This document shows, one piece after another, positions 11,908 to 41,685 of a stretch of 41,713 nt of DNA. Within the stretch, counting starts at the first letter, position 1, and the number at the start of each line of letters is the position of its first letter. The position numbers and the translations under genes are program-made. The notes under the pieces were generated by a model that was given only the letters and a program-made list of their open reading frames with translations, ran no database searches and was not told where the DNA came from. The stretch is from contig JAFUFL010000068.1 in assembly GCA_017469935.1 (NCBI GenBank), positions 1 to 41,713 of the forward strand, written 5' to 3'. The DNA comes from Lachnospiraceae bacterium (GTDB lineage Bacteria; Bacillota; Clostridia; Lachnospirales; Lachnospiraceae).

Positions 11908-11936
11908 TGTCTTACCCTCCAAATGTTCCCATGAAA

Positions 11937-11958: not shown

Positions 11959-11990
11959 ATCTTTTATGTCTCTATTGCGCCGGCGCAATG

Positions 11991-12449: not shown

Positions 12450-12453
12450 CTCC

Positions 12454-12615: not shown

Positions 12616-12986
12616 CAGAATTCTCCTTCCATTCCGACAAATACAATTCCGCCCGCACCGCCGAGATTTGCGCCCTCAGACAGCTCCTCGAGCAGCATCA
12701 TCTCCTCACTTTTATCGATGACCTCATACTCGTCTTTAATCGTATATTCGTCAATCTGCTGGTAATAATGCTGCAGATACTGGGTCTGCCGGTTATAGTC
12801 GATCTCTCTTGTATCCACATGGATGTGCTTGATCCATCCGAGGCGCTTCCTTTCCTCGGGATTTTCGTCCATCCACTCCTTGAGATTCATCATGTGGCGG
12901 CTCACAAGGATCTCCCCGTTCGGATCGTGAGACGGGAGGTTTTTGATCTTGCCGTCTTCCAGCTTGATATAACTGTATTTTTCCAT
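12615..12986 (-). CDS. Phage protein of unknown function (tail region)
   Basis: The 123-residue protein begins MEKYSYIKLEDGKIKNLPSH and ends with a glycine-rich SEGANLGGAGGIVFVGMEGEF. I do not recognise a family. It is tightly packed between the large repeat adhesin (stop at 12997) and the 53-residue gene, so it probably belongs to the tail-tip or adhesin group, perhaps as an assembly factor. There are no membrane segments. Confidence 0.72.
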   Translation of the reverse strand: MEKYSYIKLEDGKIKNLPSHDPNGEILVSRHMMNLKEWMDENPEERKRLGWIKHIHVDTREIDYNRQTQYLQHYYQQIDEYTIKDEYEVIDKSEEMMLLEELSEGANLGGAGGIVFVGMEGEF

Positions 12987-12996
12987 CTTTACCTCC

Positions 12997-15048: not shown

Positions 15049-15383
15049 CAGTACACCTCCTGTGTTACATACATTTCTCCGGTAAGGAAGGTATCGACGA
15101 CTGTATCCTCCGGAGTGCGCAGCTCCACATCATATACATAGGGTTTACGCCTTGCCTCCAGCTGCTTGGTCTCGGAAGCTTCCAGGCGCAGAATTAAGGA
15201 GTCGTTGGGAATCACTTTGTTAATGATTGGCCTGTCGTCGTCATAGGATCCTTTGAGAGCAAACCGGATCACATCTCCTTCTGTTGGAACATAATCTGCG
15301 CCGGACATAGTTTTTACGATCAGGTTGGTCTCCAGCGTGTCGCCTCTTGTAATCGTGATCGTGTTATCTTTGATACTGACCAT
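15048..15383 (-). CDS. BppU-like small baseplate/tail protein
   Basis: The 111-residue protein is predicted to be all beta, with NTITITRGDTLETNLIV and PTEGDVIRFALKGSYDD. This pattern resembles the N-terminal domain of BppU-type upper baseplate proteins and related small proteins in gut phage tail modules. It sits between two adhesin genes and is probably an adaptor that holds a fibre on the tail tip. Family assignment is tentative. Confidence 0.65.
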   Translation of the reverse strand: MVSIKDNTITITRGDTLETNLIVKTMSGADYVPTEGDVIRFALKGSYDDDRPIINKVIPNDSLILRLEASETKQLEARRKPYVYDVELRTPEDTVVDTFLTGEMYVTQEVY

Positions 15384-15414
15384 CTGATTTTCCTTTCCCT
15401 TTCCATGAAAAAGA

Positions 15415-15430
15415 GCACCCCGAAGGGTGC
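15415..15430 (-). terminator. Intrinsic terminator with UUCG loop
   Basis: The stem GCACCC/GGGTGC closes a C(UUCG)G loop and is followed on the minus strand by TCTTTTTC. It lies between the 776-residue tail protein (stop 15443) and the BppU-like gene. Confidence 0.75.
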
Positions 15431-15442
15431 CCGGTGAAATAG

Positions 15443-17773
15443 TTACTGTGCTCCATCAATCGCAGCGGTTGCAATATAAAACACTTTGAAAATCGTCTTG
15501 ATCTTTGCTGTGCTTGAACCGGTATTTCGACCATTGTATGCCAAAACATTGCCATTCAAGGTGCATGCGTATAGGTAGCAATAGTTCGCGTTCTGGCCTC
15601 CACTTGTGGCATTCATGATTTGATGGGTTGCAACTGCGATGGGCGTATAGCCCGCAACAGCGATAGAAGGTGTCCGTGTTCCGATATTCCCTCCAGCAGA
15701 TACTGTGAGATTGTCCTCTGAGAATTCTTTGACCAGGAACATTGCTCGCTGGTCTCCGGGAGATCCACTTACAAGTTTTCCTGCAACAAAACAGTTCCCT
15801 GTCTCCCCAACAGTAAAAGCATTGTGCCTGCTGTCGTCCCCATTGCCGTTTCCAACACTGAACAGGACCCCGTTATAAAAATTATATCTGCCAAAAGCTG
15901 CCGATCCGCGCATGGTTGCTTTTACATTTTGCCCATGCGCGAACGAGTATTGAGCATTTGCCGCTGATTCGTTTCCGCCGGCATGAGAATCTTCGCCGTT
16001 TGCATCGCATCCGCTTCCTTCGGCATGGGAATGTGCCCCGTTCGCTTCGTTCTGAAATCCTTCGGCATGGGATGCGAATCCATTTGCTTTTGTCAGATTA
16101 CCTTCCGCCGTAGCGTATATTCCCTGTGCTTTATTGTGATTTCCGAACGTTGAGGAGCCAATTCCCACCGTTCCGGTATCTCTTGTCCCGAACGTGAAAT
16201 ATGGCGAACTCTCGCTTGTTTCGTAGGTGATTACGATTTTTGCTCCGTCTGCCGGCGCAGTAGCAAGTTCGACTAGGTATGTACCTATGAGCGTTGCGCT
16301 TACCGTTGTTCCATCCACCTTGACAGATGTCAGACTTGTGGCGTTCAGCACATTAAAAGCCTTTGTGGATCCGTTGCCGATATACGTGTTCTGCGCTGTG
16401 CTTCCGCTGTTCCCTGTCTCAAAGTAGACGCCGGTTGTGTCTCCATAACCGGATATCTTCCCGTCCTGAATCATAAAGTGGGCGGAATCTTCGCGCCCGA
16501 TCCTCACCTTTGTGATGCCGTTCTCGACCCACGCTTTGAAAAGGGAAACTCCGGATTTCAGCATTTCCAGAGCATCTCGGATTCTCCATCCTGTCGGTGT
16601 ATTAGTATCGTTAGGTCCTTCTCCTTCCGGATGAACGAAGATACCATCTGTCTGATCTGTAACATATTTGGTTGCCACTTTTGACGCCTCCTTTGCTCTT
16701 ATTACTGCTGCTGTATCAGCAGGCTGAAATGCACCGTCCAGATATGCATACAGTCTGTTTGAAGTCGCAAAGTATCCAGCAATAGCACTCGACATCACAC
16801 CTAGCGGGATATAATACATACCATCTTCTTCTGCCGGAACGACTGTCGTCAGCCAGTTGCTCGCTGCAATGGTGAAGGTATTCCCTTCCACTGTTCCCTT
16901 CAGCCACAGGATTTTTGCGGCTGTCCCGCTCTCGATCGTTCCGGTCGTTGAAAAGTTCACATCCGGATACGCCTCATAGGAGGTTTTTGCTGTGGCGCCC
17001 GCGCTGATCGCTCCAGAGGCGTACAGGATTGGGTAAGCCAGGTCGAATACAAGAGATGCCGCTAAATTCTTATACCCAGCAGCTGTCCCAGCGATCAGGT
17101 GTGCTTTTGTCACCGCTGCTGCGGCCTTGATCGCGCTGTTGTGGAGCCTACGGTCATAATAGTTTGTGTTCGTGTTCGGTATAGAGGATGCCCTCCACGA
17201 CGTTCCGTCATAGGTCATGTTGATGACTGATCCTGCGCCGAAGTGTGTTGTTACGCGGGTTGTATTTAAGTATATAGGCACAGCCTCTGTAGTACCCCCA
17301 CCCGCCAGAGTTAATGTAAGCGTGGCTTCTCCGTCTCCTGCGTATGGCAGCTTATAGGCGATAGTCTTCCCAGCAGTCAGGCTGACATCTCTTGTGACGC
17401 CTGTCCACGCCCCCGTTTTCGCCGTCTGCGTCCCTATAACATATTCGACTGCATCAGCAAGAGCTGCATCAGCGGTGTTCTTAGCCTGCACGCTCTTGTT
17501 GTATGCTGTTTTAGCCGCTTCATAAGAGCTGGACAATGAAACATCTGAATATTCGAAGGTACCGTTGGAATAAGTCGTTTTTTCTACCACGTAAAGGCTG
17601 TTGGTAGATCCCTCAGTATACGATGGCTCAGACGTTGACCATCCGGATGGCACCTCTGTTGTAGGCTTGGCCGGGGCACTTGCCGTGGATGCCTGCAGCT
17701 TGTAATACCAGGTAACAGATTCAATATCTATTGTCTGCGCAAGTGTAATTGTCGCGCGTGCTAATACTGCCAT
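15443..17773 (-). CDS. Tail fibre/spike with YadA-head-like repeats
   Basis: The 776-residue protein has a long beta-rich N-terminal part with WYYKLQASTASAPAKP. Around residues 545-650 there is a run of about seven repeats of the form N-x-A-x-x-x-x-S-H-A-E-G (SHAEGFQNEANGAHSHAEG and relatives). These resemble the trimeric head repeats of YadA/Hia adhesins, also seen in phage fibres. It is probably a trimeric receptor-binding spike; the C-terminal about 110 residues would be the tip. The repeats are well preserved, so the gene appears intact. Confidence 0.8.
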   Translation of the reverse strand: MAVLARATITLAQTIDIESVTWYYKLQASTASAPAKPTTEVPSGWSTSEPSYTEGSTNSLYVVEKTTYSNGTFEYSDVSLSSSYEAAKTAYNKSVQAKNTADAALADAVEYVIGTQTAKTGAWTGVTRDVSLTAGKTIAYKLPYAGDGEATLTLTLAGGGTTEAVPIYLNTTRVTTHFGAGSVINMTYDGTSWRASSIPNTNTNYYDRRLHNSAIKAAAAVTKAHLIAGTAAGYKNLAASLVFDLAYPILYASGAISAGATAKTSYEAYPDVNFSTTGTIESGTAAKILWLKGTVEGNTFTIAASNWLTTVVPAEEDGMYYIPLGVMSSAIAGYFATSNRLYAYLDGAFQPADTAAVIRAKEASKVATKYVTDQTDGIFVHPEGEGPNDTNTPTGWRIRDALEMLKSGVSLFKAWVENGITKVRIGREDSAHFMIQDGKISGYGDTTGVYFETGNSGSTAQNTYIGNGSTKAFNVLNATSLTSVKVDGTTVSATLIGTYLVELATAPADGAKIVITYETSESSPYFTFGTRDTGTVGIGSSTFGNHNKAQGIYATAEGNLTKANGFASHAEGFQNEANGAHSHAEGSGCDANGEDSHAGGNESAANAQYSFAHGQNVKATMRGSAAFGRYNFYNGVLFSVGNGNGDDSRHNAFTVGETGNCFVAGKLVSGSPGDQRAMFLVKEFSEDNLTVSAGGNIGTRTPSIAVAGYTPIAVATHQIMNATSGGQNANYCYLYACTLNGNVLAYNGRNTGSSTAKIKTIFKVFYIATAAIDGAQ

Positions 17774-26352: not shown

Positions 26353-26901
26353 TCAGGCCTCCTTCACCGTGTCTTTGAAGACATAAGCCGCGATCTCTTT
26401 TGTATTCGCATCGACAGTGCACGCACCGTCGGCGCCGACGCCGTCCGCAGAATATTCCATGGAAACAGACGCAAGGTCTTCCGCCGCGGCTTCCGTCTCG
26501 AAAGACGTCAGATAGCCCTGGTAGTAGGTTCCAAGGTATTTTCCTTCTGTTGCGGCAGGGCGGGAAAGATCGACGACCCAAGCCTCGACTTTTTCTCTTT
26601 TCTTCATCGCTGCCTTCAGGTCGTCGATAGAAATCGTAGCATCCGGATCTGCGGAATTGTGGTGCATCAGCCCCTCTTTGGACAGCTCTACAGATGCAGA
26701 GCCGGCCGTGCCGATCACGCCGTCCTTGGTTACAGTCTGGTCAGTATCAGCCGAGATACTCTCTGTATCAGATGTGCCAAAAGGGATAAGCGCCGCCGCC
26801 TGAGCGTTGGCTTTGTTCATCGGGCGCAGCAGGATGATAATATCCTTGCCCTGTTCGGCAGTGTAGGTAACTGCATCATCGAACATCTTAAGATTAAACA
26901 T
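26353..26901 (-). CDS. Major tail (tube) protein, TP901-1-like, with Prp-type N-terminal sequence
   Basis: The 182-residue protein forms the tail tube. It fits the TP901-1/HK97-type tube family by size, position before the chaperones and beta-rich sequence (LGTYYQGYLTSFETEAAAED, VSMEYSADG). It starts MFNLKMFDD, the same eight-residue block as in the capsid and scaffold proteins, at residues 2-9. A cut after Phe7 would leave DDAVTYTAEQ as the new N-terminus. It lies between two strong terminators, which suits a highly expressed structural gene. Confidence 0.86.
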   Translation of the reverse strand: MFNLKMFDDAVTYTAEQGKDIIILLRPMNKANAQAAALIPFGTSDTESISADTDQTVTKDGVIGTAGSASVELSKEGLMHHNSADPDATISIDDLKAAMKKREKVEAWVVDLSRPAATEGKYLGTYYQGYLTSFETEAAAEDLASVSMEYSADGVGADGACTVDANTKEIAAYVFKDTVKEA

Positions 26902-26917
26902 TTGTTATTCCTCCATT

Positions 26918-26940
26918 AAAAAAGCCCCCTCAGCGGGAGC
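26918..26940 (-). terminator. Intrinsic terminator overlapping a stop codon
   Basis: On the minus strand GCTCCC pairs with GGGGGC (one wobble) around the TGA stop of the tail terminator gene, followed by seven U. It is the second of the pair flanking the tail tube gene. Confidence 0.65.
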
Positions 26941-27370
26941 CGATCTGTTTCATGTGGATCTCATAGATTCCATGTACGTATTTGGTCTTGGCGGCCGTTC
27001 CGACCTGCCCGGAGACGTTATCCGGGAAGCACCTCATGCCCGTGTCCATGATCATCCAGGTGTAAGAGTGCGTACCGTCACGCTCCATTTCCCTTACGCA
27101 CTCGCCGATCAGGGCAAGCATCTTTAACACTTCCGAGGTCTTGTCCGGATTGTCGTGCCAGACGCTCACCGAATGGTATACCTCCTGCATGACCTCCCGC
27201 TTGCTCGTCCTATTATCCGGAGCCCTCAGCTCCTCGATGTAATAGAACGGATGCGGGACATCTGCCGGCGGCAGTGACGTCTCATAAACCTTATGGTCGG
27301 GATCTTTAGCTTTGAGCCGCCCTATGAGTTCCACCCTGTATTCCTCGAGTGGCGTAGATATGAGGATCAC
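26930..27370 (-). CDS. Tail terminator-like protein
   Basis: The 146-residue protein lies between the gp10-like gene and the tail tube gene, where tail terminator/completion proteins are found. The pattern (YYIEELRAPDNRTSKREVMQ, HSVSVWHDNPDKTSEVLKM, SYTWMIMDTG) resembles DUF806-type tail proteins. It would cap the tube end that joins the head. Assignment rests mainly on gene order. Confidence 0.7.
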   Translation of the reverse strand: MILISTPLEEYRVELIGRLKAKDPDHKVYETSLPPADVPHPFYYIEELRAPDNRTSKREVMQEVYHSVSVWHDNPDKTSEVLKMLALIGECVREMERDGTHSYTWMIMDTGMRCFPDNVSGQVGTAAKTKYVHGIYEIHMKQIGSR

Positions 27371-27374
27371 CTCC

Positions 27375-27728
27375 TTACTTCATGATAGCCTCCATGTCTC
27401 TTTTAAAGATCGGTACCTGCTCCTCGAAAGCGGGCTTCACGGCAGGTTCCGCCTGCATGAACCGTGTACCGTACTCCACATACGGGCTGTAATCGGTAGT
27501 AGGCCCGACATTGGCAGTCATTCCGCCGTCTGTGATCACCGTATTGACGCTTCCGGCAGTGTCTCCATGGGAATACCCTTTGATGTATGCCTGCGTCATT
27601 TTGGACTTCATCTTCGCATTCAGCTGGTTTCCGTTCTTCGTGATCACTGTTTTGACCGGTTCCCTGTTGTTTCCACAGTACTCGAGCTTTGCCTGGAGCT
27701 TGTCCATGCCCACCAGTTTTACATCCAT
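27375..27728 (-). CDS. HK97 gp10-family head-tail joining protein
   Basis: Starting at the ATG at 27728 (MDVKLVGMDKLQAKL, 117 residues; GAGGTG upstream) the protein shows the HK97 gp10 pattern: GxDKLxAKL start, GDTAGSVNT, YSPYVEYGTRFMQAEPAVKPAF. The open frame extends 19 codons further up into the preceding gene without a better start. It is part of the head-tail connector group. It overlaps the upstream gene at its start. Confidence 0.83.
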   Translation of the reverse strand: MDVKLVGMDKLQAKLEYCGNNREPVKTVITKNGNQLNAKMKSKMTQAYIKGYSHGDTAGSVNTVITDGGMTANVGPTTDYSPYVEYGTRFMQAEPAVKPAFEEQVPIFKRDMEAIMK

Positions 27729-27729
27729 A

Positions 27730-28065
27730 TCACAGCACCTCGTGACAGATAAACGTCGACCTGCGGCGCAGGATCCGCTTTGCATCTACATCGTAAAGAA
27801 CGGATTCGCCGGTCTCCCGGTCTTCTATCCGTATGTGGTCAAAAGGCTCTCTGAAGGCCTCATTAAGCCTTACGGTCCTGCTGCCTTCCCGCAGCATCCC
27901 ATAGACGACCTGCTGGGTCTTGGTCTGCGTGTCAGTGACATCCGCATAACGTTCGACTTCTTTGGGCTTTCCGGCCTCATATTCGCCGTAGTTCTCAGCT
28001 CCCGGAGTGTCGACAAGCGTCTTTTCAGCATCGGTGACAAAATAGATCTTCGTATCGCATCTCAT
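27730..28065 (-). CDS. Probable head closure (head-tail adaptor) protein
   Basis: The 111-residue protein is encoded between the connector (28075) and gp10-like genes, where siphophages keep the head closure protein. It has EVERYADVTDTQTKTQQVVYG, EAFREPFDHIRIEDRETGE and a C-terminal basic KRILRRRSTF. No sure family match from memory; the function is inferred from order and size. Confidence 0.65.
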   Translation of the reverse strand: MRCDTKIYFVTDAEKTLVDTPGAENYGEYEAGKPKEVERYADVTDTQTKTQQVVYGMLREGSRTVRLNEAFREPFDHIRIEDRETGESVLYDVDAKRILRRRSTFICHEVL

Positions 28066-28074
28066 CTCATCACC

Positions 28075-28404
28075 TCACAGAAATCTTACCCTGACTCCGT
28101 TGGAGGCCTTGTCCCTGTTGTCCAGGTAGGCCCGGATGTCCTTTTCATACGGCTCGAACAGATCTGTCAGCCATGATGCCGACTCTCCCTCGATCGTCAT
28201 GGAGCTCTTGCCCTCATCGCCAATCTGGTTGAAGCGGGCAACAGTCACGTTGATGACGATATAGTCGAGCTCGTAAGGGACTTCCTCCGCGCCGATCCGC
28301 ACGAGCAGCTGGGACTCGACCATGTCAGCGATCGTCTTTACGACCTCATAGTCTACAGACTCCCCGAGAAGGCTCTTGACCTTGGCTAAAGCCTTTGTGT
28401 CCAT
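28075..28404 (-). CDS. Head-tail connector (gp6-like)
   Basis: The 109-residue, largely helical protein (KVKSLLGESVDYEVVKTIADM, YIVINVTVARFNQIGDEG, FEPYEKDIRAYL) matches the pattern of small gp6/gp15-type connector proteins, which bind under the portal ring. It sits directly after the major capsid and a small acidic gene. No portal gene is present in this prophage, so the protein would have nothing to bind unless a portal is supplied in trans. Confidence 0.75.
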   Translation of the reverse strand: MDTKALAKVKSLLGESVDYEVVKTIADMVESQLLVRIGAEEVPYELDYIVINVTVARFNQIGDEGKSSMTIEGESASWLTDLFEPYEKDIRAYLDNRDKASNGVRVRFL

Positions 28405-28415
28405 AGGCGGCCTCC

Positions 28416-28676
28416 TTACTGGGCTTTCTTGGACCTGCGTTTCTTCGGAGCCTCTTCTTTCTCAGGCGCTTCCGGGACAGCCTCTTCCGTATCTTCCGGG
28501 ATCTCTTCGATCAGAGGCTGCTTGCGCTGGTTTCCCTTTCCAGACAGCTCCTTGATGCGCTCCTCGGTGGGCTCGAGGCCTTCCCTCGGATAGATATCAC
28601 CTTTGTTGTAAAGGTGGAAGCTCTTACCTTCCGGATCCTGCAAGTCATAAAAGCCTTCAATTACTCTGTATGTCAT
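28416..28676 (-). CDS. Small phage protein with charged C-terminal tail
   Basis: The ATG at 28676 follows GGGAGG closely and gives 86 residues. The first 40 (MTYRVIEGFYDLQDPEGKSF) look like a compact beta domain often seen after capsid genes in Clostridium phages. The remainder is a low-complexity acidic then basic tail (EEIPEDTEEAVPEAPEKEE, KKRRSKKAQ). Function unknown; a minor capsid or head-decoration role is possible from position. Confidence 0.68.
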   Translation of the reverse strand: MTYRVIEGFYDLQDPEGKSFHLYNKGDIYPREGLEPTEERIKELSGKGNQRKQPLIEEIPEDTEEAVPEAPEKEEAPKKRRSKKAQ

Positions 28677-28710
28677 AGTTTCCTCCCATTTATATCTCAC
28701 AAGGGAGGGA

Positions 28711-28726
28711 CGGCCCGAAGGCCGCC
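28711..28726 (-). other. UUCG hairpin after the capsid gene
   Basis: On the minus strand GGCC-UUCG-GGCC forms a short, very stable hairpin downstream of the major capsid gene. No U tract follows, so it is more likely an RNA-end protecting or processing hairpin than a terminator. Confidence 0.5.
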
Positions 28727-28748
28727 ACCCCCTGGAGAATCAGATTGA

Positions 28749-29783
28749 TCAGACGCCGGTGATCGTCGCAGTGACCTTCACAAGGGCCTTCTTGTTGTCC
28801 TCAGAGATGAACTGACCAGCCTTGCCTGCGCCCTGCAGGGTTGTACCGTCGAAATCATGCGCCTCGAACGCTCTGGAGGTCTCAATGCCAGTGAAAGGCA
28901 CGCCGATCTTCTGGATACCGGCGATACAGATCTCCTGCGTAGCAGGCTGTGCTGCTACATAACCTTCCTGTCCCTCTGTGCCAACTGCAGCCTGCGCAAC
29001 AGTCGCCTGGAAAGCACCTGTAGGAAGCTTACGGATGACAAAGTCTTTGAACATGCGGACTTCATTGCGATCGATATTCACGTCAGACCCCTTGGCTGTG
29101 GTAGAGAGGTTGTTGTCAACGATCGCGTTATAAAGCGCAGGAGTTACTGCCGCAACGCGGGTCAGTGTCTCATCGACCTCGATATCCGTCAGATAGCTGT
29201 CGATCTCGTTAAAGATCGCAATTGCCTGTGCGGAAGAGATCACGTCAGCAGATGCAAGACTGACCTCAACGTTCTTTCCCGCTTCAGCAGAAAGATACGC
29301 ACCCTGCTTTGCGTTGAACTTGCCGGTGATACCATTGGCGATCTTCTCCATCTCGCGAGCATTGGCTTCATCGAAGTCAGCATTTACAGTATGCTTGTCG
29401 ATGCCTTCGTGATATACCCAGTCCCATGTATATGCAACATCCTCGTCCTCGTACTTGACCTCTGTACGGTTGCCGAATCTGTTTGTGCTTCCGGTTCCGC
29501 TGCCAAATGCAACATTCGCACCGGTGTCGTATGCTGCAGTCCCGCCTTCTTCAAGAGATCCTGCGCTTACGGCAGCTGCTACATCATTGGTCTTGATTGT
29601 AAATGCGACATCTTTATGAGTGATGCCGTCCATAGCCTGCAGCTCAGTGAAGAAGTCACTCCAGTAGGATTTCACTGCAAAAACTGCTTTCAGGATACCG
29701 AGCAGCTGTTTGCCATAGTAGCGGATATTCTGGTTCTGATTCTCACCATCATCAAACATTTTCAGATTGAAAAAAGTTCCCAT
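28749..29783 (-). CDS. Major capsid protein with Prp-type N-terminal sequence
   Basis: The 344-residue protein follows the scaffold gene and has the layout of HK97-fold capsid proteins (MDGITHKDVAFTIKTNDVAA, RVAAVTPALYNAIVDN, C-terminal VKVTATITGV). It starts MGTFFNLKMFDD; residues 5-12 are the shared block also found in scaffold and tail tube proteins. In Staphylococcus phage 80alpha the equivalent proteins are cut by the host protease Prp after such a motif. A cut after Phe10 would remove ten residues. It appears intact. Confidence 0.88.
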   Translation of the reverse strand: MGTFFNLKMFDDGENQNQNIRYYGKQLLGILKAVFAVKSYWSDFFTELQAMDGITHKDVAFTIKTNDVAAAVSAGSLEEGGTAAYDTGANVAFGSGTGSTNRFGNRTEVKYEDEDVAYTWDWVYHEGIDKHTVNADFDEANAREMEKIANGITGKFNAKQGAYLSAEAGKNVEVSLASADVISSAQAIAIFNEIDSYLTDIEVDETLTRVAAVTPALYNAIVDNNLSTTAKGSDVNIDRNEVRMFKDFVIRKLPTGAFQATVAQAAVGTEGQEGYVAAQPATQEICIAGIQKIGVPFTGIETSRAFEAHDFDGTTLQGAGKAGQFISEDNKKALVKVTATITGV

Positions 29784-29785
29784 TT

Positions 29786-30406
29786 TTATCTCCTTTTGTA
29801 TTTGTCCCTAACGGCCTGATAAGGATCTTTCGGGCCGTTGTCATTGTTACCAAAACTCTTGGGCGTGTTCCCACGTGCTCTCTTTTCCTCCTGTACCTTA
29901 CGGTCAGCAAGGATAATCCCTACAAGCTTCTTGACGTTCGACTTGGCTGCATCAGCATCGGCGTCTGCAGTCACGACCAGGTCGAGGAAATCCTGGGATG
30001 CGCTGATACCTTCCTCCATGGCTTCCACATCGGCGGCCACGGTCTTGCGCAGGGCGTCAGTCGCGATCTGAGCTTCAAGCTCTTTGATACGGGCGTCCTT
30101 CTTGGCAGCCTCTTCCTCAGCTTTGCGCCTGTCCTCTGCCTCCTTCTGCTCCTTAGTCATGCGCTCATACTTACGCGCCTCATCGGTAGCCTTCTTGAGG
30201 TCCTCGGCGTGCTTCTTTTCCCACTCTGCCTTGTGCTTGGCCACAATACGGTCCACCTCGGCATCGTCGTATTTCTTTCCGCCGGTCTTATCCTCTTCCT
30301 TCTTGGCAGGGTCTTCTGCCGGATCGTTTCCGCCCTCACCGGCCGGATCCGGATCGTCGAACATACGAAGATTGAACATCAGGTTCCTGTAGTCTTTAAA
30401 TTTCAC
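29786..30406 (-). CDS. Scaffold protein (DUF4355-like) with Prp-type N-terminal sequence
   Basis: The protein is highly charged and helical throughout the centre (about 45-120, coiled coil with KAEWEKKHAEDLKKATDEA), as expected of a capsid scaffold, and lies directly before the capsid gene. Two starts are possible: GTG at 30406 (206 residues, AAAGGA seven bases upstream) or ATG at 30379, which would give MFNLRMFDD, the same placement as in the tail tube protein. The FNLRMFDD block is at 11-18 of the longer form. The C-terminal basic YQAVRDKYKRR may contact the capsid protein. Confidence 0.85.
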   Translation of the reverse strand: MKFKDYRNLMFNLRMFDDPDPAGEGGNDPAEDPAKKEEDKTGGKKYDDAEVDRIVAKHKAEWEKKHAEDLKKATDEARKYERMTKEQKEAEDRRKAEEEAAKKDARIKELEAQIATDALRKTVAADVEAMEEGISASQDFLDLVVTADADADAAKSNVKKLVGIILADRKVQEEKRARGNTPKSFGNNDNGPKDPYQAVRDKYKRR

Positions 30407-30490
30407 TGCTTTATCCTTTCCGCTCCTCCCGGAGCACTCCCCAGCTTTGTCTGCCCCTCCCGGGGCTTCGGTTCCGGGCCTGCCAATTAA

Positions 30491-30511
30491 AAAAGCACCC
30501 TCATCGGGTGC
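30491..30511 (-). terminator. Intrinsic terminator between Prp and scaffold genes
   Basis: The perfect stem GCACCC/GGGTGC overlaps the stop codon of the Prp-like gene and is followed on the minus strand by UUUUUUAAUU. It would reduce read-through into, or separate, the scaffold/capsid unit. Confidence 0.83.
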
Positions 30512-30797
30512 ATGTTACCTTAATATTCTCCGGGTACGATCCTGCCATGCGGATCAGCCCCAGACATGTACTGTCGATCAGTAGTTTCAGCTTCTCAGTA
30601 GGCGCTCTCGGCCATGTGATGACCGCGTCTCCGTCCTTCAGAGAAGAGCTGATCTCGTCGGTGGTAAATTCCCTCGCCGACGCTTCAAAAGTCTGCACAA
30701 GGGCAGAAACGGCGGCGCAGACAATGTCATTTCCGGGATTGTATCCGGCATGACCTGTCACTGTCAGCTGCGCCGGCGCAATTGTGATGTTAATCAT
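30501..30797 (-). CDS. Prp-family cysteine protease encoded by the prophage
   Basis: The 98-residue protein contains the Prp (YsxB/DUF464) signature GHAGYNPGNDIVCAAVSAL with catalytic His16 and Cys27. Bacterial Prp removes the N-terminal extension of ribosomal protein L27, cutting after the last Phe of a L-N-L-Q-F-F motif, and in S. aureus it also trims phage 80alpha scaffold and capsid. Here the gene sits just before the scaffold gene and overlaps the preceding HExxH gene by 4 bases. The three shared F-N-L-x-M-F-D-D leaders in this prophage are its likely substrates. The His-Cys spacing is one residue shorter than in S. aureus Prp. Confidence 0.88.
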   Translation of the reverse strand: MINITIAPAQLTVTGHAGYNPGNDIVCAAVSALVQTFEASAREFTTDEISSSLKDGDAVITWPRAPTEKLKLLIDSTCLGLIRMAGSYPENIKVTCTR

Positions 30798-31096
30798 AAT
30801 TTGTCCTCCGCGAACATCTCCGGGTTGTCCCGGACCAGCATGTACAGGGCCGTCCCCAGTTTCTCGACCTGCTTCTCCTTCAGGCCGATGCTGTACAGAT
30901 CATCGAGGCCATGGACCATCTCGTGCATCAAAGTCGCCTTCTGCTGCTCCAAGCCTGCATCCTCATTCAGAGTGATCAGCTGTTCTATATGGTCGATCTG
31001 GCCATAAAGGAGATTACCCTTGTCGTCTCGCATGTTGTTATCCCGACATACGGTGTACTTCTTAAACAAGATCTTGACTGTATCAGGTATGATCAT
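30794..31096 (-). CDS. Small HExxH metallopeptidase-like protein
   Basis: The 100-residue protein has HEMVH at 58-62 inside a helix (QQKATLMHEMVHGLDDLYS) and a downstream helix with glutamates (KEKQVEKLGTALY) that could give a third zinc ligand. The overall pattern is like ImmA/IrrE- or SprT-type minimal zinc peptidases. Start and stop overlap both neighbours by 4 bases (coiled-coil gene upstream, Prp gene downstream), so the three are translationally coupled. Substrate unknown; position suggests head maturation or control of the neighbours. Confidence 0.75.
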   Translation of the reverse strand: MIIPDTVKILFKKYTVCRDNNMRDDKGNLLYGQIDHIEQLITLNEDAGLEQQKATLMHEMVHGLDDLYSIGLKEKQVEKLGTALYMLVRDNPEMFAEDKL

Positions 31097-31382: not shown

Positions 31383-31646
31383 TTAATCCGGGATACAGAC
31401 ATTCTCCCACTTCTTGTAAGCATCGAGATATGTCTCACCCTTGTCACCATTGTGCGTGACCTCGTAGTACATGCCATCAGAAACGGTTGTACTTACAAGT
31501 GCCTTCCAGTTCTGCAGGGTCTTGCAGAACCACACAACGAACACATCGTCTTCGGTGATCTTCTTGTTGTCGGTGACCTCGACGTGGTCGTTGAAATAGT
31601 TGACCACAAGCTCTTTCGCTCTTTTGAGCATCGCATCATTACTCAT
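31383..31646 (-). CDS. DUF6275-family phage protein
   Basis: The 87-residue protein (AKELVVNYFNDHVEV, VFVVWFCKTLQNWKALVST, YYEVTHNGDKGETYLDAYKK) matches the DUF6275 pattern frequent in Firmicute prophages. Its function is not known. It is flanked by terminators on both sides and has a normal ribosome site (GGGAGG) before the ATG. Confidence 0.75.
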   Translation of the reverse strand: MSNDAMLKRAKELVVNYFNDHVEVTDNKKITEDDVFVVWFCKTLQNWKALVSTTVSDGMYYEVTHNGDKGETYLDAYKKWENVCIPD

Positions 31647-31674
31647 GTTTTACCTCCCTTTATTACATGAAAAA

Positions 31675-31694
31675 AGCACCGCCGGAGCGATGCT
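31675..31694 (-). terminator. Intrinsic terminator
   Basis: On the minus strand GCATCG pairs with CGGTGC (one wobble) around CTCCGG and is followed by UUUUUUC, just past the YjcQ-like gene. Confidence 0.65.
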
Positions 31695-31705
31695 ATTAAC
31701 AACTA

Positions 31706-32061
31706 CTAAATCAATGCGCCTATAATTCCATCTAACAACACTGAAAACGCACTTCCAAGAAACTCTTTCGCTTTTTGCATCCTACTGTTTTCACAGAGAA
31801 ATTCACGTCCCTTCAATGTTATTCCCGCATTATCCATCATGAATATTGACTGCGGCCCTTTGGTCGGAATATGTTTAAATCCTTTCACATATCCGCAGTC
31901 GATCAGTTCCTCCATTACCTGGTTCCAATACTCAGGAGGAATTCTGAACATCTGGCACGTGCTGCCGATATCTTCCAAGCGAGGGTGTTTGCGGCCTTCA
32001 TGCATTCGTACAAGTAGCTGAGAATCTTGTACACGATGATTTCCATGTCGTTCTGAGCCAT
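31706..32061 (-). pseudogene. YjcQ-like phage protein, frameshifted
   Basis: The C-terminal frame (from 32005 to 31706) reads as a YjcQ-type winged-helix protein (ITLKGREFLCENSRMQKAK near the end). A proper start with ribosome site lies upstream at 32061 in another frame and gives MAQNDMEIIVYKILSYLYECM, the expected family N-terminus. The two halves join only if one frame change is made near 31996-32006, around GAATGCATGAAGG. As written, the upstream frame stops at 31915 after 48 residues. This is a true mutation, a sequence error or, less likely, a programmed shift. Confidence 0.6.
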
Positions 32062-32087
32062 TTGCTACACTCCATCAGAAATAATTA

Positions 32088-32315
32088 TTAATAATCTGTA
32101 TCAGGTTCTAATTCAATTCCTAAATAATCTAATAGCTTTGTATTAGTTTTTACGCAGTCATCTAAGATCTTAATCCACTCTTCATGAGAGAATTGCAATG
32201 ATTCTGTCATTAAATCATCTGCTCCAAAGCGATCTTTATATCTTTGGACTGCTTTACTAAACTCGGTTTTTTCCGGTTTTGGGTAATCAGGTCTTAAAAA
32301 ATAAGGTATATCCAT
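32088..32315 (-). CDS. Candidate immunity protein for the MuF toxin
   Basis: The 75-residue acidic protein (MDIPYFLRPDYPKPEKTE ... YLGIELEPDTDY) starts directly after the MuF gene stop, with no gap. It is markedly AT-rich, like the C-terminal part of the MuF gene and unlike the rest of the prophage. Small genes in this position after MuF toxins usually encode immunity proteins. I do not recognise its family, so the call rests on position, size and base composition. Confidence 0.6.
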   Translation of the reverse strand: MDIPYFLRPDYPKPEKTEFSKAVQRYKDRFGADDLMTESLQFSHEEWIKILDDCVKTNTKLLDYLGIELEPDTDY

Positions 32316-33785
32316 TTAAAAATCTTCAAGCATTAATTGAAAAACCGCTATTGCATTTGGGAAAACAATTTTCAAAAGTTCTTGTTTCTCAACATCATTT
32401 CGTGCATATGCTTCGAAGAAATGAGCGAACGCTTCTCTTTCTAACGAATGTTTAGCTTTCCAATAACCAATGGGATGCGAATAATCTCCCACGCATTCGT
32501 TGTTACTTAAAGCTCCAAGTAAATCTGATATCGAATGAAATTGGTCTCCACTAATGATTGCACTAATAGCTTGATATGCTTGCTCCTTGCTATAATTATA
32601 GTTTGCTTTATAAGAATTAACAAGATTTATAAAATCAGTTCTAAGAGAGTTTTCAAAACCATATTTTTGAGATGGCCGTCCCATCAACATGTCAATACGA
32701 TGTCCAATTTCATGAAAACTTGATACAAAAGAACCCCTCTTGTCGAAAACATCTTGGACAATATTAACTCTCATACCCTTTTTCGTGTTACATGCTCCAG
32801 CCAAGGGCTTTTGATTAATTATCCCCATATTATCTCTAAATCGATAAATAATGTTTCTAATAGATGAAGGTGCTTTATCAATAGCTTTCACTAATTGTTC
32901 GGACTCATCTGATCCAATATCAAAAATGCTAACAGGTTCTTTATCTCTTGCTAAATCGATCTTTTTTAAGGCCTTTCCCCACAAAGTCTCCGAATCTGCT
33001 TCGTCATTTTTCTCATCCGCATCAAACTCCGCCCACGGCACCCCCGCCTGCGCAGGCCCGTCAAGCCACCTCTGCCACTTCTCTTCGTCAAACGCAGGGC
33101 AAGTGCAGCAATGACATAACGGATGCTTCGGCGGCGCATTCTTACCCACCGACATCTCCGAGATCTTAAATACCTTTCCATCCAGTGCGAGGCACTCATC
33201 ACACGGATTGATGCCATTCGCTACCAGGAACTTATACTCCGTCACACCGTTGTCCAGCATCGACTGTTCGGCCGCTGCAGTCTGTACTCTCCGGAGCTCC
33301 GTGCGCATAAGCCTCTGACAGTTATAAGCACTCTGCCCGGTCAGCTTCTGTACGTTCCGGGCAAGGACGTCAGAGCCCTTGCCGGTCAGGATCCCCTGCG
33401 CGATCTGTGCGCCGATCCACTCTGAGAGCAGCGCCTGATTGTTCCAGAGCCTCTGTGACCATGTCGCATTTTGGTAGGAGGCATTCACGATTGAGCGGAC
33501 CATGTTCTCATTGAACTGGACTGTGTTGCCGAGGATCCCTGCAAGACGGTAATACTCGGAGTAAGCCCGCTCTTCCAACGCCTCATTGATCAGCTGGTCG
33601 GCCCGACGATATCCTTCCATGGCGCGGATCCCGCAGCGGGCCTTAAGCATCTCCAGCCTGTTGATCCGCATCGTGGCGTTGTACAGCCGCATCTGTTCAT
33701 TGGCGATATCTGAGAAAGCCGCTTCTCTGCCGCCCTCATGTGCCGCCTTGACGTACTGTGCCGCGAGGCGCTCGTACTTCTCCAT
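32316..33785 (-). CDS. MuF minor head protein with C-terminal HExxH toxin-like domain, N-terminally truncated
   Basis: Residues 1-250 are a phage Mu F-type minor head domain with GINPCDECLALDGKVF and the zinc-type ending APPKHPLCHCCTCP. After about 265 the base composition drops sharply (one sampled stretch is about 30% GC, against about 60% or more earlier). This C-terminal domain has HEIGH at 358-362 and EREAFAHFFEAYA near the end, as in zinc peptidases. It fits the MuF polymorphic toxins of temperate phages. The MuF frame continues upstream to about 33897 (EFIRCIQQEIESFYQRYA) with no proper start and runs into the primase gene, so the N-terminus is lost. Confidence 0.8.
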   Translation of the reverse strand: MEKYERLAAQYVKAAHEGGREAAFSDIANEQMRLYNATMRINRLEMLKARCGIRAMEGYRRADQLINEALEERAYSEYYRLAGILGNTVQFNENMVRSIVNASYQNATWSQRLWNNQALLSEWIGAQIAQGILTGKGSDVLARNVQKLTGQSAYNCQRLMRTELRRVQTAAAEQSMLDNGVTEYKFLVANGINPCDECLALDGKVFKISEMSVGKNAPPKHPLCHCCTCPAFDEEKWQRWLDGPAQAGVPWAEFDADEKNDEADSETLWGKALKKIDLARDKEPVSIFDIGSDESEQLVKAIDKAPSSIRNIIYRFRDNMGIINQKPLAGACNTKKGMRVNIVQDVFDKRGSFVSSFHEIGHRIDMLMGRPSQKYGFENSLRTDFINLVNSYKANYNYSKEQAYQAISAIISGDQFHSISDLLGALSNNECVGDYSHPIGYWKAKHSLEREAFAHFFEAYARNDVEKQELLKIVFPNAIAVFQLMLEDF

Positions 33786-33834
33786 GTCGATCTTGGAGAC
33801 GCGGCGCCTCGCTTCCGCTATATCGATCCCCTCT

Positions 33835-34398
33835 TTATCGGCATATCTCTGATAAAAGCTCTCGATTTCCTGCTGGATGCAGCGTATAAACTCCCTTGTT
33901 GGCCGGCACCCATTTCTGCGTGCCGTCTTTGTTTGCCTTCTGGAAGGAGCCCATCACGTACCCAAAGGTCTCTTCGGGAGTGAACAGCGTCTCCAGATAT
34001 CTGATCAGCTCCTTCGCCGGTTCCCATGAAGCAGGCTCATCAATATCACGATGCTCTACCCAGCCCTCTCCCACAATGGCGCCTTCAACATAATCAAGGC
34101 CCCCGTCAAGGTCGAGGATCCTTCCGGGCTCACGCTGCGGAGGCACCCATCCGGCTTCCATGGCCATATGAACGATGGTGCCGCCGGTGACGCCCTCATC
34201 ACGGCGGAAGGACCGCCATTTCTTGGCACACTCGCCCGTGTGATAGCGCCCGGAGTCCCTGCGGCTCCAGTCATCCCAGACATCGCAGGAATAGCCCTCA
34301 AACTTCAGGGCCATTCCTACTTCCGTCCATTCCTCGTAATTGAGAAGCGCAGGATTTATATGATTTAATAATTCTCTGAGATCTGTCCTGTTTTCCAT
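33835..34398 (-). pseudogene. Phage primase, truncated after the N-terminal (PriCT-like) part
   Basis: The 187 residues start MENRTDLRELLNHINPALL and include the PriCT-like block (WTEVGMALKFEGYSCDVWDDW, TGGTIVHMAMEAGW). A segment typical of phage primases follows (AKELIRYLETLFTPEETFGYV). In relatives the protein continues for several hundred residues through the primase catalytic core. Here it ends within about 60 bases of where MuF-type sequence begins in another frame. I read this as a deletion junction, not a natural short form. Confidence 0.75.
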
Positions 34399-38379: not shown

Positions 38380-38841
38380 ATGACTACTACGGAAAAACTT
38401 GTTGCAGAAGCGTACAGCCATGGGGCTGAGACTATAGATTGGAGATTTACATCAGATAGAATAAAAGGCCTGTACTGCGACGGCGTGATCGCGATCAGCG
38501 ACAGACTCACTGGTAAGGAGCAAACCGCAGTGTTGGCCGAGGAACTTGGCCATCACTTAACTGCATCCGGCAACATCCTCGATCAGAATGTTGCTACCAA
38601 CCGTAAGCAGGAGCTCCGCGGTCGGATCTGGGCATATAACCGCCTGATTGGTCTGACTGGGATCCTCCGTGCCTATAAGATGGGGTGCCGGAATCGATAC
38701 GAGATGGCTGAGTGCCTGGACGTCCCGGAAGAGACCCTGCAGGAGGCTTTGGACTACTACCATAGCCGGTACGGGGTCTGCACGCAGGTCGATAACTATG
38801 TGATCTACTTCGATCCGCTCGGAGTGATGGAATTAATATAA
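38380..38841 (+). CDS. ImmA/IrrE-family metallopeptidase-like protein
   Basis: ImmA-type proteins relieve phage or ICE repression by cleaving the repressor. The 153-residue protein has LAEELGHHLT, the family's zinc segment with Glu where the first His of HExxH is usual, as I recall from many Clostridium prophage members. A second conserved block (NRYEMAECLDVPEETLQEALD) follows. The start follows GGAGG. It stands beside the repressor remnant, its normal target. Confidence 0.85.
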   Translation: MTTTEKLVAEAYSHGAETIDWRFTSDRIKGLYCDGVIAISDRLTGKEQTAVLAEELGHHLTASGNILDQNVATNRKQELRGRIWAYNRLIGLTGILRAYKMGCRNRYEMAECLDVPEETLQEALDYYHSRYGVCTQVDNYVIYFDPLGVMELI

Positions 38842-40415: not shown

Positions 40416-41444
40416 ATGGCGAAAGCACAAAAACGAGGAAAGAAGTGGCGCTGCCTTGTATTCTCTCACTATGAATACAAAGACGGCAAGAAAATCCGCA
40501 AGTACAAATCCTTCACTGCAGACAGTAAAAAGGAAGCCGAGAGGCTCGCCGCTGCCTGGGAATATGATCAGGCCCAGAACGCCGGGAAGCTGTCCGTGCA
40601 TGACGCGATCGAGCAGTATATAGACGTCAAGGAAACGGCTCTGTCGCCGTCCACAGTGACCGGATACAGGTCTTATCTGAAGACCGGTAAGTATGAGCCA
40701 CTGGAAGATTTAGACGTCTCTGAGGTCGATCAGCGCGGTCTCCAGCTGTGGGTAGCCTTTATGCTGGAGGAAGAATACAGCGCCAAGTACATCCAGAACT
40801 GTTATGGGCTCCTGCGGCCGGCTCTTACAATGGCCGGCGTCGGGAACATACCGATCACTCTTCCCATGGTGATCATGCCGGAGATCTACGTGCCGACGGA
40901 CAAGGAGCTGAAGAAGCTCCTGGCCTATCTCGACAAGGAAGATCCGGAAGTAAAGACTGCTGCCATGCTCGCCGCCTTCGGCTCCATGCGCCGATCGGAG
41001 ATCTGTGCCCTGAAGCCGTCTGACTTTGGTGATGGCACCGTCACTGTCCAGCGTGCGATTGTTAAAAAAAGCAATGGCAAGTGGGTCGAGAAGAAAACCA
41101 ACAAGACCGTGAAGTCGCACAGGACCGTCGTCCTCCCGCCCCAGGTCATCGCTGGCATAGATCTGTCGCACGATCCGATCATATCACTGAATCCCGATCA
41201 GCTGTCTAAGCGATTCCGGAAGGCGATCAAGCATGCCAATATGCCGCAGGCCTTTTGCTTGCACGCCCTGAGGCATTACTACGTAAGTATAGCGCACGTC
41301 CTTGGGATCCCTGACGCCTATGTCATGAAAATGGGAGGATGGCAGACAGATTATGTCATGAAGCGGAATTACAGGTCGACTCTGACCGACGTGGAGAAGA
41401 AGGAACAGGCGAAGATGAATAAACATTACGCGAAGATGTTCTGA
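40416..41444 (+). CDS. int: Tyrosine-type phage integrase
   Basis: This enzyme carries out integration and excision at the tRNA-Ser att site. The 342-residue protein has an N-terminal arm-binding domain, a SAM-like core-binding domain (about 60-140) and a catalytic domain with Arg192 (GSMRRSE), His283 and Arg286 (LHALRHYY), Trp309 (GGWQ) and Tyr319 (KRNYRSTL). The start follows GAGGAGG. The stop is immediately followed by the right-hand arm-type repeats and then attR, the standard arrangement. The catalytic set is complete, so the enzyme could be active even though the prophage is damaged. Confidence 0.95.
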   Translation: MAKAQKRGKKWRCLVFSHYEYKDGKKIRKYKSFTADSKKEAERLAAAWEYDQAQNAGKLSVHDAIEQYIDVKETALSPSTVTGYRSYLKTGKYEPLEDLDVSEVDQRGLQLWVAFMLEEEYSAKYIQNCYGLLRPALTMAGVGNIPITLPMVIMPEIYVPTDKELKKLLAYLDKEDPEVKTAAMLAAFGSMRRSEICALKPSDFGDGTVTVQRAIVKKSNGKWVEKKTNKTVKSHRTVVLPPQVIAGIDLSHDPIISLNPDQLSKRFRKAIKHANMPQAFCLHALRHYYVSIAHVLGIPDAYVMKMGGWQTDYVMKRNYRSTLTDVEKKEQAKMNKHYAKMF

Positions 41445-41447
41445 ACC

Positions 41448-41514
41448 TTGGTTGCATTTTGGTTGCATAGAATCGAAAAACAATCGTTTTTACACAATAA
41501 AAATTGGTTGCCAT
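41448..41514 (+). promoter_or_regulatory. Integrase arm-type sites, right end
   Basis: TTGGTTGCAT occurs at 41448-41457 and 41459-41468, with a variant TTGGTTGCCAT at 41504-41514. The first pair matches the doublet at the left end in sequence, spacing and orientation. Confidence 0.65.
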
Positions 41515-41550
41515 CCAATAAACGATAGTGCCGAAAAAGCCCATAAATAA

Positions 41551-41593
41551 AGGAAAAACCGGGAACACGGCTACAACACCTTGTTCCCGGTTT
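41551..41593 (-). terminator. Phage-supplied terminator for tRNA-Ser
   Basis: The perfect 12-bp stem AAACCGGGAACA/TGTTCCCGGTTT (41556-41567/41582-41593) with a 14-base loop is followed on the minus strand by UUUUUCCU. Its first bases lie inside the att core, so the prophage replaces the terminator that the host tRNA gene lost on integration. Confidence 0.83.
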
Positions 41594-41619
41594 CAGCGGA
41601 GGACATGGGATTCGAACCC
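41591..41619. other. attR (29-bp direct repeat)
   Basis: This repeat is identical to 8257-8285 and forms the 3' end of the intact tRNA-Ser gene. Confidence 0.93.
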
Positions 41620-41685
41620 ACGCGCCGGTATTAGCGGCCTATCGCATTTCGAGTGCGACCTCTTCGACCTCTTGAGTAATCCTCC
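41597..41685 (-). tRNA. tRNA-Ser (anticodon CGA)
   Basis: The 89-nt gene folds as a class II tRNA: acceptor GGAGGAT with GTCCTCC, D arm CTC/GAG, anticodon stem TCGCA/TGCGA with loop CTCGAAA (anticodon CGA), a long variable arm (GCCG/CGGC) and T arm GTGGG-TTCGAAT-CCCAT. The discriminator is G and CCA is not encoded. A TATAAT -10 at 41698-41703 lies 13 bases upstream; the -35 would be beyond the window. Confidence 0.95.

Follow-up and report, generated by a model that had tools for sequence, protein, structure and literature searches.

A prophage of a Lachnospiraceae bacterium encodes its own Prp cysteine protease, which probably processes three proteins of the virion, namely the capsid scaffold, the major capsid protein and the tail tube, with a specificity that has co-evolved with their N-terminal leaders; we infer both the cleavage and the private character of the pair from the sequences. 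The window, by which we mean the whole stretch of DNA analyzed, comprises 41,713 nucleotides (contig JAFUFL010000068.1, assembly GCA_017469935.1) and belongs to an assembly of 3.55 Mb that is 98.55% complete. The four open reading frames of the preliminary description were recovered where it had placed them, all on the minus strand, and they are given here with their leaders and one neighboring gene:

26353..26901, minus strand: tail tube protein, 182 aa, leader MFNLKMF-DD (Phage_tail_2 4.8e-15; phrog_238, tail)
26875..26898, minus strand: codons of the tail tube leader FNLKMFDD, predicted cut F/D
28749..29783, minus strand: major capsid protein, leader FNLKMF-DD, N-terminal MGTFFNLKMFDD (phrog_840, major head)
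29748..29771, minus strand: codons of the capsid leader FNLKMFDD, predicted cut F/D
29786..30406, minus strand: capsid scaffolding protein (DUF4355/Gp46), leader FNLRMF-DD (DUF4355/Gp46 3.8e-12; phrog_172, scaffold)
30353..30376, minus strand: codons of the scaffold leader FNLRMFDD, predicted cut F/D
30501..30797, minus strand: phage-encoded Prp cysteine protease, 98 aa (PF04327 4.4e-18; phrog_4478 9.1e-22)
30794..31096, minus strand: small putative HEMVH metallopeptidase (M78/IrrE-like; Peptidase_M78 E 0.013, below cut-off)

The major capsid protein had no match in Pfam up to E 0.1. Portal and terminase were not found in the prophage's own genome with two Pfam families, nor with the proteins of the related locus L003 (two protein searches without a positive control).

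The Prp is a genuine member of its family, as had been proposed. It matches PF04327 over positions 1-90 of 90 with 65.7 bits (curated cut-off 27), its sequence profile matches the solved Prps 4peo/7kld and 7jvs together with the relatives 2g0i, 2idl and 1s12, and its AlphaFold2 model has a pLDDT of 94.7. H16, D24 and C27 of the GHA-loop-DIVC block are invariant among 14 aligned phage Prps and common to the host Prp too; in the S. aureus enzyme (SaPrp) the catalytic residues are H22 and C34, and D31 is structural (PMC9405229). Since the spacing between His16 and Cys27 is 11, against 12 between H22 and C34 of SaPrp (PMC9405229), the loop of the phage enzyme (GHAGYNPGNDIVC) is one residue shorter, as first described. 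Among 194 other related genomes, the search for relatives of this Prp gave a single weak match at E ≤ 1e-12 (38%, genome G133).

Scaffold, capsid and tail tube do share the block F-N-L-[KR]-M-F-D-D: the DNA pattern TTYAAYYTNNNNATGTTYGAYGAY has exactly three matches in the assembly, all at the starts of these three virion genes, and in six frames the window holds FNL[KR]MFDD nowhere beyond the three leaders. For the scaffold there are two candidate starts, a GTG at 30406 (VKFKDYRNLMFNLRMFDD) preceded by AAAGGA and an internal ATG (MFNLRMFDD) preceded by AGGA, and its leader measures 18 or 9 residues through the last D depending on which is used; the shared block of the preliminary description holds, and its scaffold N-terminus MFNLRMFDD is amended in that the GTG is possible besides the internal ATG. 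In a matrix trained on leaders from the same related loci, with a cut-off of 6 that we chose, strict leaders score 13-25, and of 536 other ORF N-termini one reached 6 (scoring 6.2) and none reached 7. These scores, with the three assembly-wide matches confined to virion genes, lead us to reject chance as the source of the leaders.

The block is written TTC AAT CTT CGT ATG TTC GAC GAT in the scaffold, TTC AAT CTG AAA ATG TTT GAT GAT in the capsid and TTT AAT CTT AAG ATG TTC GAT GAT in the tube. That the differing codons point to selection on the protein is supported by a nucleotide identity of 0.70 within leaders versus 0.30 in the 30 bases directly after them, and by 221 of 429 identical leader residues sharing a codon where 184 are expected; on the same figures, gene conversion is unlikely as the sole cause. 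The difference between 221 and 184 leaves room for slight copying at the DNA level.

In all three window proteins a hydrophobic N-terminal x-N-L-x-x-F lies near the start, as in the proteins of phage 80alpha; the strict host site NLQ[FH]F-A, with Q at P3 and A at P1', occurs in none of them, the leaders having K/R at P3 and D at P1'. We refer to leaders of this kind as the D dialect (D type) and to those with Q at P3 as the Q dialect (Q type). The host genome has its own Prp gene adjoining a long L27 (MLNLNLQFF-AHKK), from whose site the D-dialect leaders differ at P3 and P1'.

Cutting of phage proteins by a host Prp is already published (PMC5744158). S. aureus Prp, which acts on L27 and on the 80alpha scaffold gp46 and capsid gp47, offers the same Peptidase_Prp family with a His-Cys dyad and the same x-N-L-x-x-F leader on scaffold and capsid. 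Unlike in 80alpha, where the enzyme is the host's, the prophage encodes it, its loop is one residue shorter, the site reads K/R-M-F-D instead of Q-F/H-F-A, and a third leader stands on the tail tube. A tail tube substrate had been thought new; a Prp site on a tail protein is not, since PMC5744158 (Dearborn et al. 2017) notes one in the major tail protein of phi13, and the motif LKLNLQHFA is seen in that 318-aa sequence. The likeness to phi13 lies in a tail protein with a Prp motif; the differences are the 318-aa protein there against the 182-aa tube here, the host-type site, and a phi13 record without a PF04327 match. Enterococcus phiFL3A, Oenococcus phiS13, Lactococcus PLgT-1 and Brochothrix BL3 likewise have a phage Prp near portal, scaffold and capsid and leaders on virion proteins, but in the Q dialect; their Prps are annotated as peptidase (the phrog_4478 label), and a second record labels those of phiFL3A and PLgT-1 as ribosomal protein. 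HK97-type prohead proteases are also phage-encoded and trim capsid-assembly proteins, yet their enzyme class is unrelated to Prp, and the prophage differs from them in using a Cys protease of the kind by which bacteria process their ribosomes and in presumably having a tail substrate too.

The idea of an arrangement specific to this prophage had to be abandoned, as the same arrangement occurs in many phages of Bacillota. Our survey leans toward the window because it was drawn from two scans, the best 80 of 281 loci from a single Prp loop motif and the best 80 of 261 from the tube; where several loci had identical Prp domains, only one was counted, and the motifs of L016 and L086 were entered by hand after reading. 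Prp genes and leaders co-occur as had been expected: among the matches listed, 98 distinct phage Prp loci extend for 2.2 kb or more downstream, and in 86 of them both scaffold and capsid bear a scored leader. The 12 remaining loci comprise seven with leaders visible by eye on at least two virion proteins (L045, L046, L093, L101, whose scaffold leader is doubtful, L153, L181 and L208), two without an intact capsid ORF in place (L078, L083), two that stop before the head genes (L013, L113) and one whose capsid is clearly without a leader (L177). Leaders are still present where the head genes lie ~17 kb from Prp (L032/L052/L240). Tubes found by profile in Prp phages, again among the matches listed, bear a leader in 64 of 76 cases and none in 12, so that processing of the tube would be optional; this count excludes the tubes of L099, L100 and L106, which were assigned by position on the strength of their leaders. 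The eight named Prp-bearing phages that we examined all have scaffold and capsid leaders, and their tube leader is scored in six, weak by eye in L217 and absent from L222.

A search for the reverse situation, a leader in the absence of Prp, gave no case among 18 viral contigs, not all independent, with a virion leader matching the DNA pattern for NL[KR]MFD[DE]: Prp is present in 14, and the other four cannot be judged because upstream of the leader they comprise only 304-739 bases. This pattern, which is blind to CGN arginine and to any residue but M at P2, had no match in 391 further genomes from the order or in 397 from the phylum, two samples that partly overlap.

Within a single phage, the leaders of the different proteins speak one dialect. 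When class is taken as Q or not-Q at P3, as in both the pair-agreement and the shuffle analyses, agreement among the matches listed is 88/88 for scaffold and capsid, 64/64 for scaffold and tube and 63/63 for capsid and tube; for D or not-D at P1' the respective figures are 87/88, 64/64 and 62/63. Restricting the set to Prps less than 50% identical (n=26), residues of scaffold and capsid agree beyond shuffles at P6, P3, P2, P1 and P1' (p 0.0002-0.0042) and not at P5; among Q-type phages alone, agreement at P1' is no better than chance. Odd leaders are common to all three proteins in Oenococcus phiS13 (NLQRFA three times), Acutalibacter Fontainebleau (LQLFD three times), L055 and L166 (Tyr at P1 three times) and L106 (His at P1 three times). 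Residues also vary inside phages: D at P1' is found on the capsid only in L055, H at P1 on the tube only in L073, F, H and C at P1 across the three proteins in L084, L091 and L115, and D, T and N at P1' in L045, while P2 differs within BL3, PLgT-1, L160 and L221. D-type leaders appear within three mostly Q-type capsid families (7/44, 1/24, this one being the window, and 4/14).

The enzyme follows the leaders. A leader class was assigned to 101 of 108 distinct Prp domains, the seven unassigned being L038, L077, L087 and L112 with 165-282 bases downstream, the incomplete L013 and L113, and L052, a short contig stretch whose leaders lie ~17 kb away. Among the matches listed and with L101 left out, 14 of 17 D-type Prps but 0 of 83 Q-type Prps have the loop shortened by one residue, which supports the earlier suggestion that the changed site and the shorter loop go together; L101 has a short loop with VNLQLHD (Q at P3, D at P1'), and its inclusion gives 1/84 for the Q type. 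With the loop columns removed before tree building, loop and dialect change together in 4.2 of 5 independent contrasts and go against each other in none (sign test p 0.0625-0.125), and an earlier count gave 3/3 (p 0.25); both counts have too few contrasts for significance. Loop length alone is rejected as a specificity code, given L101, the D-type leaders beside a normal-length loop in L021, L024 and L102, and the long loop of Acutalibacter Fontainebleau with Q at P3 and D at P1'.

Comparison of the window genes with 17 D-type and 10 Q-type loci revealed a mosaic. Among these loci, the scaffold is closest to the Q-type L049 (68% over 205 aa) and the capsid to Q-type phages (L131, on the same contig as L045, 82% over 340 aa), with no match to the capsid in the compared D-type loci. 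For the tube (86% to L120, which has FNLKMFD as its tube leader), the two tail genes that follow it, the five genes at 26930-28700, Prp and the N-terminal half of MuF, the closest loci are those of D phages. Scaffold and capsid, both Q-related, carry D-type leaders, and the capsid N-terminus reads FDLQMFATGDNQNQ in L049 versus FNLKMFDDGENQNQ in the window. The window looks like a natural transplant, in which a Q-related scaffold and capsid would have been re-tagged with D leaders. The transplant is not clean: the C-terminal half of MuF matches only L049 (Q type) among the compared loci, the small genes at 31383-32315 have weak or no matches there, and the tape measure and the gene at 18769 do not separate the D and Q groups. 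The notion of a hybrid Prp in L049, window-like in its C-terminal half, proved wrong (67% identity in the N-terminal half, 49% in the C-terminal half).

In the mechanism that we favor, the prophage's Prp, encoded just before the scaffold gene, would grip through its His-Cys loop the short hydrophobic leader x-N-L-x-M-F-D on new scaffold, major capsid and tail-tube subunits and would cut after Phe, leaving mature subunits that start with Asp, in parallel to the host Prp acting on L27 (F-A). In the D dialect the enzyme (loop shorter by one residue, Asn at position 20) and the leaders (K/R/H at P3, D at P1') have shifted together, a joint change from which it would follow that late phage proteins are handled by the phage enzyme and not by the host Prp that serves L27; we infer that the latter would refuse the phage leaders. 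As tags and protease change together across related phages, phages appear to keep private protease-tag pairs. Of the phage-private pair in the preliminary description, the pairing of the phage Prp with three leaders stands, and the word private is to be qualified, as it comes from sequence comparison. It is an even call whether Bacillota phages have repeatedly split such private dialects, from NLQxF-A to NL(R/K/H)xF-D, with imported capsids re-tagged to the resident enzyme.

Other explanations partly overlap this one, and the likelihoods we attach to them do not add up to unity. The leaders could matter uncut, because 80alpha can do without cutting its capsid and scaffold and requires only the scaffold leader, the reason for the cutting being recorded as unclear (passages of PMC5744158). 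Prp might hold subunits by their leaders before assembly, as a docking or chaperone tag with cutting incidental or absent, and a chaperone role toward L27 is discussed in parts of PMC9405229; we give this a real if minor chance, as the coordinated residues include P1 and P1', which flank the presumed scissile bond, and all 14 aligned Prps retain the catalytic pair of His and Cys. It is improbable that cutting falls to the host Prp, as it does in 80alpha, and that the phage enzyme is redundant. The host does possess a Prp and a long L27, and 80alpha, phi13 and TP901-1 have the motif in phage records without a PF04327 match. However, in 16 Prp-less phages and loci the leaders seen (LNLQLFA, MHLQFFA, LNIQYFA, LNLQLSA, FNLQFFA, LNLQHFA, MDLQYFA and, weakly, NNIQFFA) keep Q at P3 and A at P1' and none is of D type; of 36 tube-bearing loci without Prp, 28 had too little upstream sequence and eight were used. 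The D dialect, moreover, departs from the L27 site at P3/P1' and tracks the phage Prp loop, and C. difficile Prp leaves the S. aureus L27 peptide uncut, according to a passage of PMC9405229.

We see very little prospect for the absence of any functional link, with the leaders alike through gene conversion or common descent in a linked operon. Scaffold, capsid and tube belong to different families with no similarity after the leader, leaders fit the loop type across ~17 kb, and the mosaic of the window breaks linkage while the leaders match regardless; the genes are mostly neighbors, and the small surplus of shared codons fits such an origin. That the HEMVH putative metallopeptidase is the processing enzyme is hardly credible: its gene adjoins Prp, overlapping its start by 4 bases, but its family match is below the cut-off, and it does not follow the dialect, being 62% identical to both the D-type L003 and the Q-type L044 copies.

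If such private dialects exist, one phage protease would license the subunits of both head and tail as the late genes are expressed, independently of the host enzyme. That an enzyme has changed in concert with as many as three unrelated substrates, and has done so in many phages, is evidence that this processing is under selection. It also supplies natural enzyme-substrate pairs for decoding the specificity of Prp, which is discussed as an antibiotic target in parts of PMC9405229, and predicts the mature N-termini of many unannotated phage capsids and tails.

The four genes that the preliminary description had placed in the prophage were all located there, and their family assignments (tail tube, major head protein, Gp46-type scaffold and Peptidase_Prp) were borne out. 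The features concerned are:

26353-26901, minus strand, tail tube protein
28749-29783, minus strand, major capsid protein
29786-30406, minus strand, scaffold protein
30501-30797, minus strand, Prp protease
30794-31096, minus strand, HEMVH gene, a small putative metallopeptidase
32316-33785, MuF-type minor head protein

A six-frame search found the leader, the N-terminal tag FNL[KR]MFDD, exclusively at the starts of scaffold, capsid and tube in the window, and its DNA form has exactly three matches in the 3.55-Mb assembly. An alternative GTG start of the scaffold at 30406 is possible and would give an 18-residue leader. Two small M78/IrrE-like putative metallopeptidases are present within this one prophage (38380-38841 and 30794-31096), the match being weak for the copy that overlaps the Prp start by 4 bases. 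An integrase gene lies beside tRNA-Ser(cga) (40416-41685), a likely attachment site.

The same genome contains a second Prp on a separate contig, flanked by ORFs that we take to be L27 and an L21-like gene. The N-terminus of host L27, MLNLNLQFFAHKK, is of the long form; its P3 residue is Q, and A follows the presumed cut. At the equivalent place the window leaders read K/R-M-F-D, and they therefore differ from the host site at P3 as well as at P1'. When phage Prps are aligned to the host copy (L001, 1501-1857), the latter displays a long His-Cys loop, GHAEYASRRGIAKLVRPQGDVVC.

Phage Prp loci were collected by Prp, capsid and tail-tube scans of viral contigs and by a tail-tube scan of genome contigs, yielding 108 distinct Prp domains. 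The sample favours the window, as the scan for one Prp loop motif contributed the best 80 of its 281 loci and the tube scan the best 80 of 261. Leaders were scored with a matrix trained on strict leaders of the same loci at a cut-off of 6, which 1 of 536 other ORF starts reached (score 6.2), none scoring 7 or more. In 98 loci the sequence extends 2.2 kb or more downstream of Prp; the search for co-occurrence of Prp and leaders, suggested in the preliminary description, recovered a scored leader on the scaffold as well as the capsid in 86 of them. Among the remaining 12, seven bear leaders on at least two virion proteins by eye (the scaffold leader of locus L101 is doubtful), two have no intact capsid ORF in the expected place, two stop ahead of the head genes, and in one, L177, the capsid has no leader. 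In L177 a second short Prp-like ORF (TGYADY..DGYP), its catalytic residues apparently missing, was seen by eye 13 bases downstream of Prp. Tubes carried the leader in 64 of 76 cases found by profile and in three more picked by position. In the viral contig L240, a 4119-residue ORF (4436-16792) separates Prp from leader-bearing scaffold and capsid genes that keep the D dialect described below; in L238, Prp is followed by two ORFs labelled by eye as putative TIR/SEFIR or defence-type (12190-15106) before the presumed scaffold is reached.

The leaders fall into two main dialects: Q, mostly [ND]LQ[LMI]F-A and like L27, and D, NL[RKHN][ML]F-D. Within a phage, the presence of Q at P3 agrees in 88/88 scaffold-capsid, 64/64 scaffold-tube and 63/63 capsid-tube pairs, and that of D at P1' in 87/88, 64/64 and 62/63, the exception being L055. 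Finer variants, too, are often common to all three leaders: Tyr at P1 in L055 and in L166, His at P1 in L106, LQRFA in Oenococcus phiS13, and LQLFD in Acutalibacter Fontainebleau, whose tube was assigned by position. Mismatches within a phage occur at P1 (F, H and C on the three proteins of L084, L091 and L115; His confined to the tube in L073), at P1' (D, T and N in L045) and, in several phages, at P2. When partners were shuffled, which leaves some relatedness among phages in place, scaffold-capsid agreement exceeded chance at P6, P3, P2, P1 and P1' and not at P5, with the same outcome for the 26 phages with Prps less than 50% identical; within the Q dialect alone it did so at P6, P2 and P1 and not at P1'.

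The protease itself varies with the dialect. A His-Cys loop one residue shorter (GHAxYNPGNDIVC) is present in 14 of 17 D-type versus 0 of 83 Q-type Prps, omitting L101, which combines a short loop with a capsid leader having Q at P3 and D at P1'. The residues that track dialect best are window Prp positions 20, 77 and 28, the first of which is N/H in D-type and mostly A/G in Q-type enzymes. According to PMC9405229, the binding site has a flexible loop stabilised by Asp31. On the Prp tree the D label requires 7 changes, at least 4 of them forced by well-supported branches, and 6 once the loop columns are removed; on the capsid-family trees it takes 2, 1 and 1, and on the main scaffold family tree 2. 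Independent contrasts favoured linked change (scaffold and capsid, 3 of 3; class and loop, 4.2 of 5), in numbers too small for significance.

Gene by gene, the window was compared with 17 loci of D type and 10 of Q type; several of these share contigs, and some (L120, L130) are classed as D from the tube or capsid leader only, their Prp being off contig. D-type phages are closest for the MuF N-terminal 258 residues (86%; 77-86% across D-type relatives), Prp (78%), five genes at 26930-28700 (64-79%), the tube (86%) and the next two genes (82% and 79%). The scaffold is nearest to Q-type L049 (68% over 205 aa) and the capsid to Q-type L131 (82% over 340 aa), while the 17 D-type loci gave no capsid match and a scaffold match of 26 residues only. 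Despite these Q-type relatives, both proteins carry D leaders (capsid, FNLKMFDDGENQNQ versus FDLQMFATGDNQNQ in L049; scaffold, VKFKDYRNLMFNLRMFDDP versus MKNNDYKRLMWLQMFADE). Scaffold and capsid thus look imported, apparently a natural transplant, if not a clean one: the C-terminal half of MuF matches L049 alone (36%) among the loci compared. That part carries a HEIGH (HExxH) motif and may be an effector-like domain acquired by exchange. D and Q groups are not told apart by the tape measure, the HEMVH gene or the gene at 18769, and the small genes at 31383-32315 have weak or no matches among the compared loci.

Neither an SPP1-type portal nor a Terminase_3 large subunit was found in this genome; two further searches, run without a positive control, gave no match to the proteins in the portal/terminase place of L003. 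The start of the MuF gene falls 87 codons into the homologous L003 ORF, and the gene abuts a short primase-like ORF (187-aa PriCT_2; 33785-33835). The prophage may be defective through a large deletion, or the assembly may have collapsed.

It is quite probable that the virion proteins are processed by the phage's own Prp. The strongest rival is that leaders serve as a docking tag with no need for cutting, as capsid and scaffold that cannot be cleaved are tolerated in 80alpha (PMC5744158). The same paper describes cleavage of 80alpha capsid and scaffold by host Prp and a Prp motif on the phi13 tail protein; host Prp as the enzyme that cuts D-dialect leaders is less likely. A third candidate enzyme, the adjoining HEMVH protein, shows no correlation with dialect. 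Phage Prps are already annotated and grouped as phrog_4478; among the matches listed in the open-access literature, none describes phage proteins as targets of a phage-encoded Prp, and we are unsure of priority.

Leaders lacking any Prp, which the preliminary description held to be contrary to the pairing, did not emerge from a search of viral contigs with a DNA pattern for NL[KR]MFD[DE], which is blind to CGN arginine codons and to leaders without M at P2. Its 27 matches comprise 18 virion leaders and 9 others; for 14 of the 18, Prp is encoded on the same contig, in one case at a distance of about 17 kb, and the other four are only 304-739 bases away from a contig end. No other genome matched in two overlapping samples, one of 391 genomes from the order and one of 397 from the phylum. 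PF04327 is absent from the whole records of TP901-1, phiEf11, NF5, 9872, BCJA1c, TMW 1.591, 80alpha and phi13. The scaffold carries a leader in TP901-1, phiEf11, NF5, 9872 (LNLQLSA) and 80alpha, the capsid in 80alpha and weakly in BCJA1c (NNIQFFA), and the tail protein in phi13. Eight more Prp-less tube-bearing loci (L159, L167, L209, L212-L216; for the six bacterial contigs, within the stretch examined) have no tube or capsid leaders, and the scaffold of L216 carries MDLQYFA. A 225-aa ORF of L159 scoring 6.6 (FNMRLKD) was taken as chance. In this small sample, the tag of phages without their own enzyme is thus mostly limited to the scaffold and in the host dialect; with a phage Prp, the capsid and usually the tube are tagged in addition.
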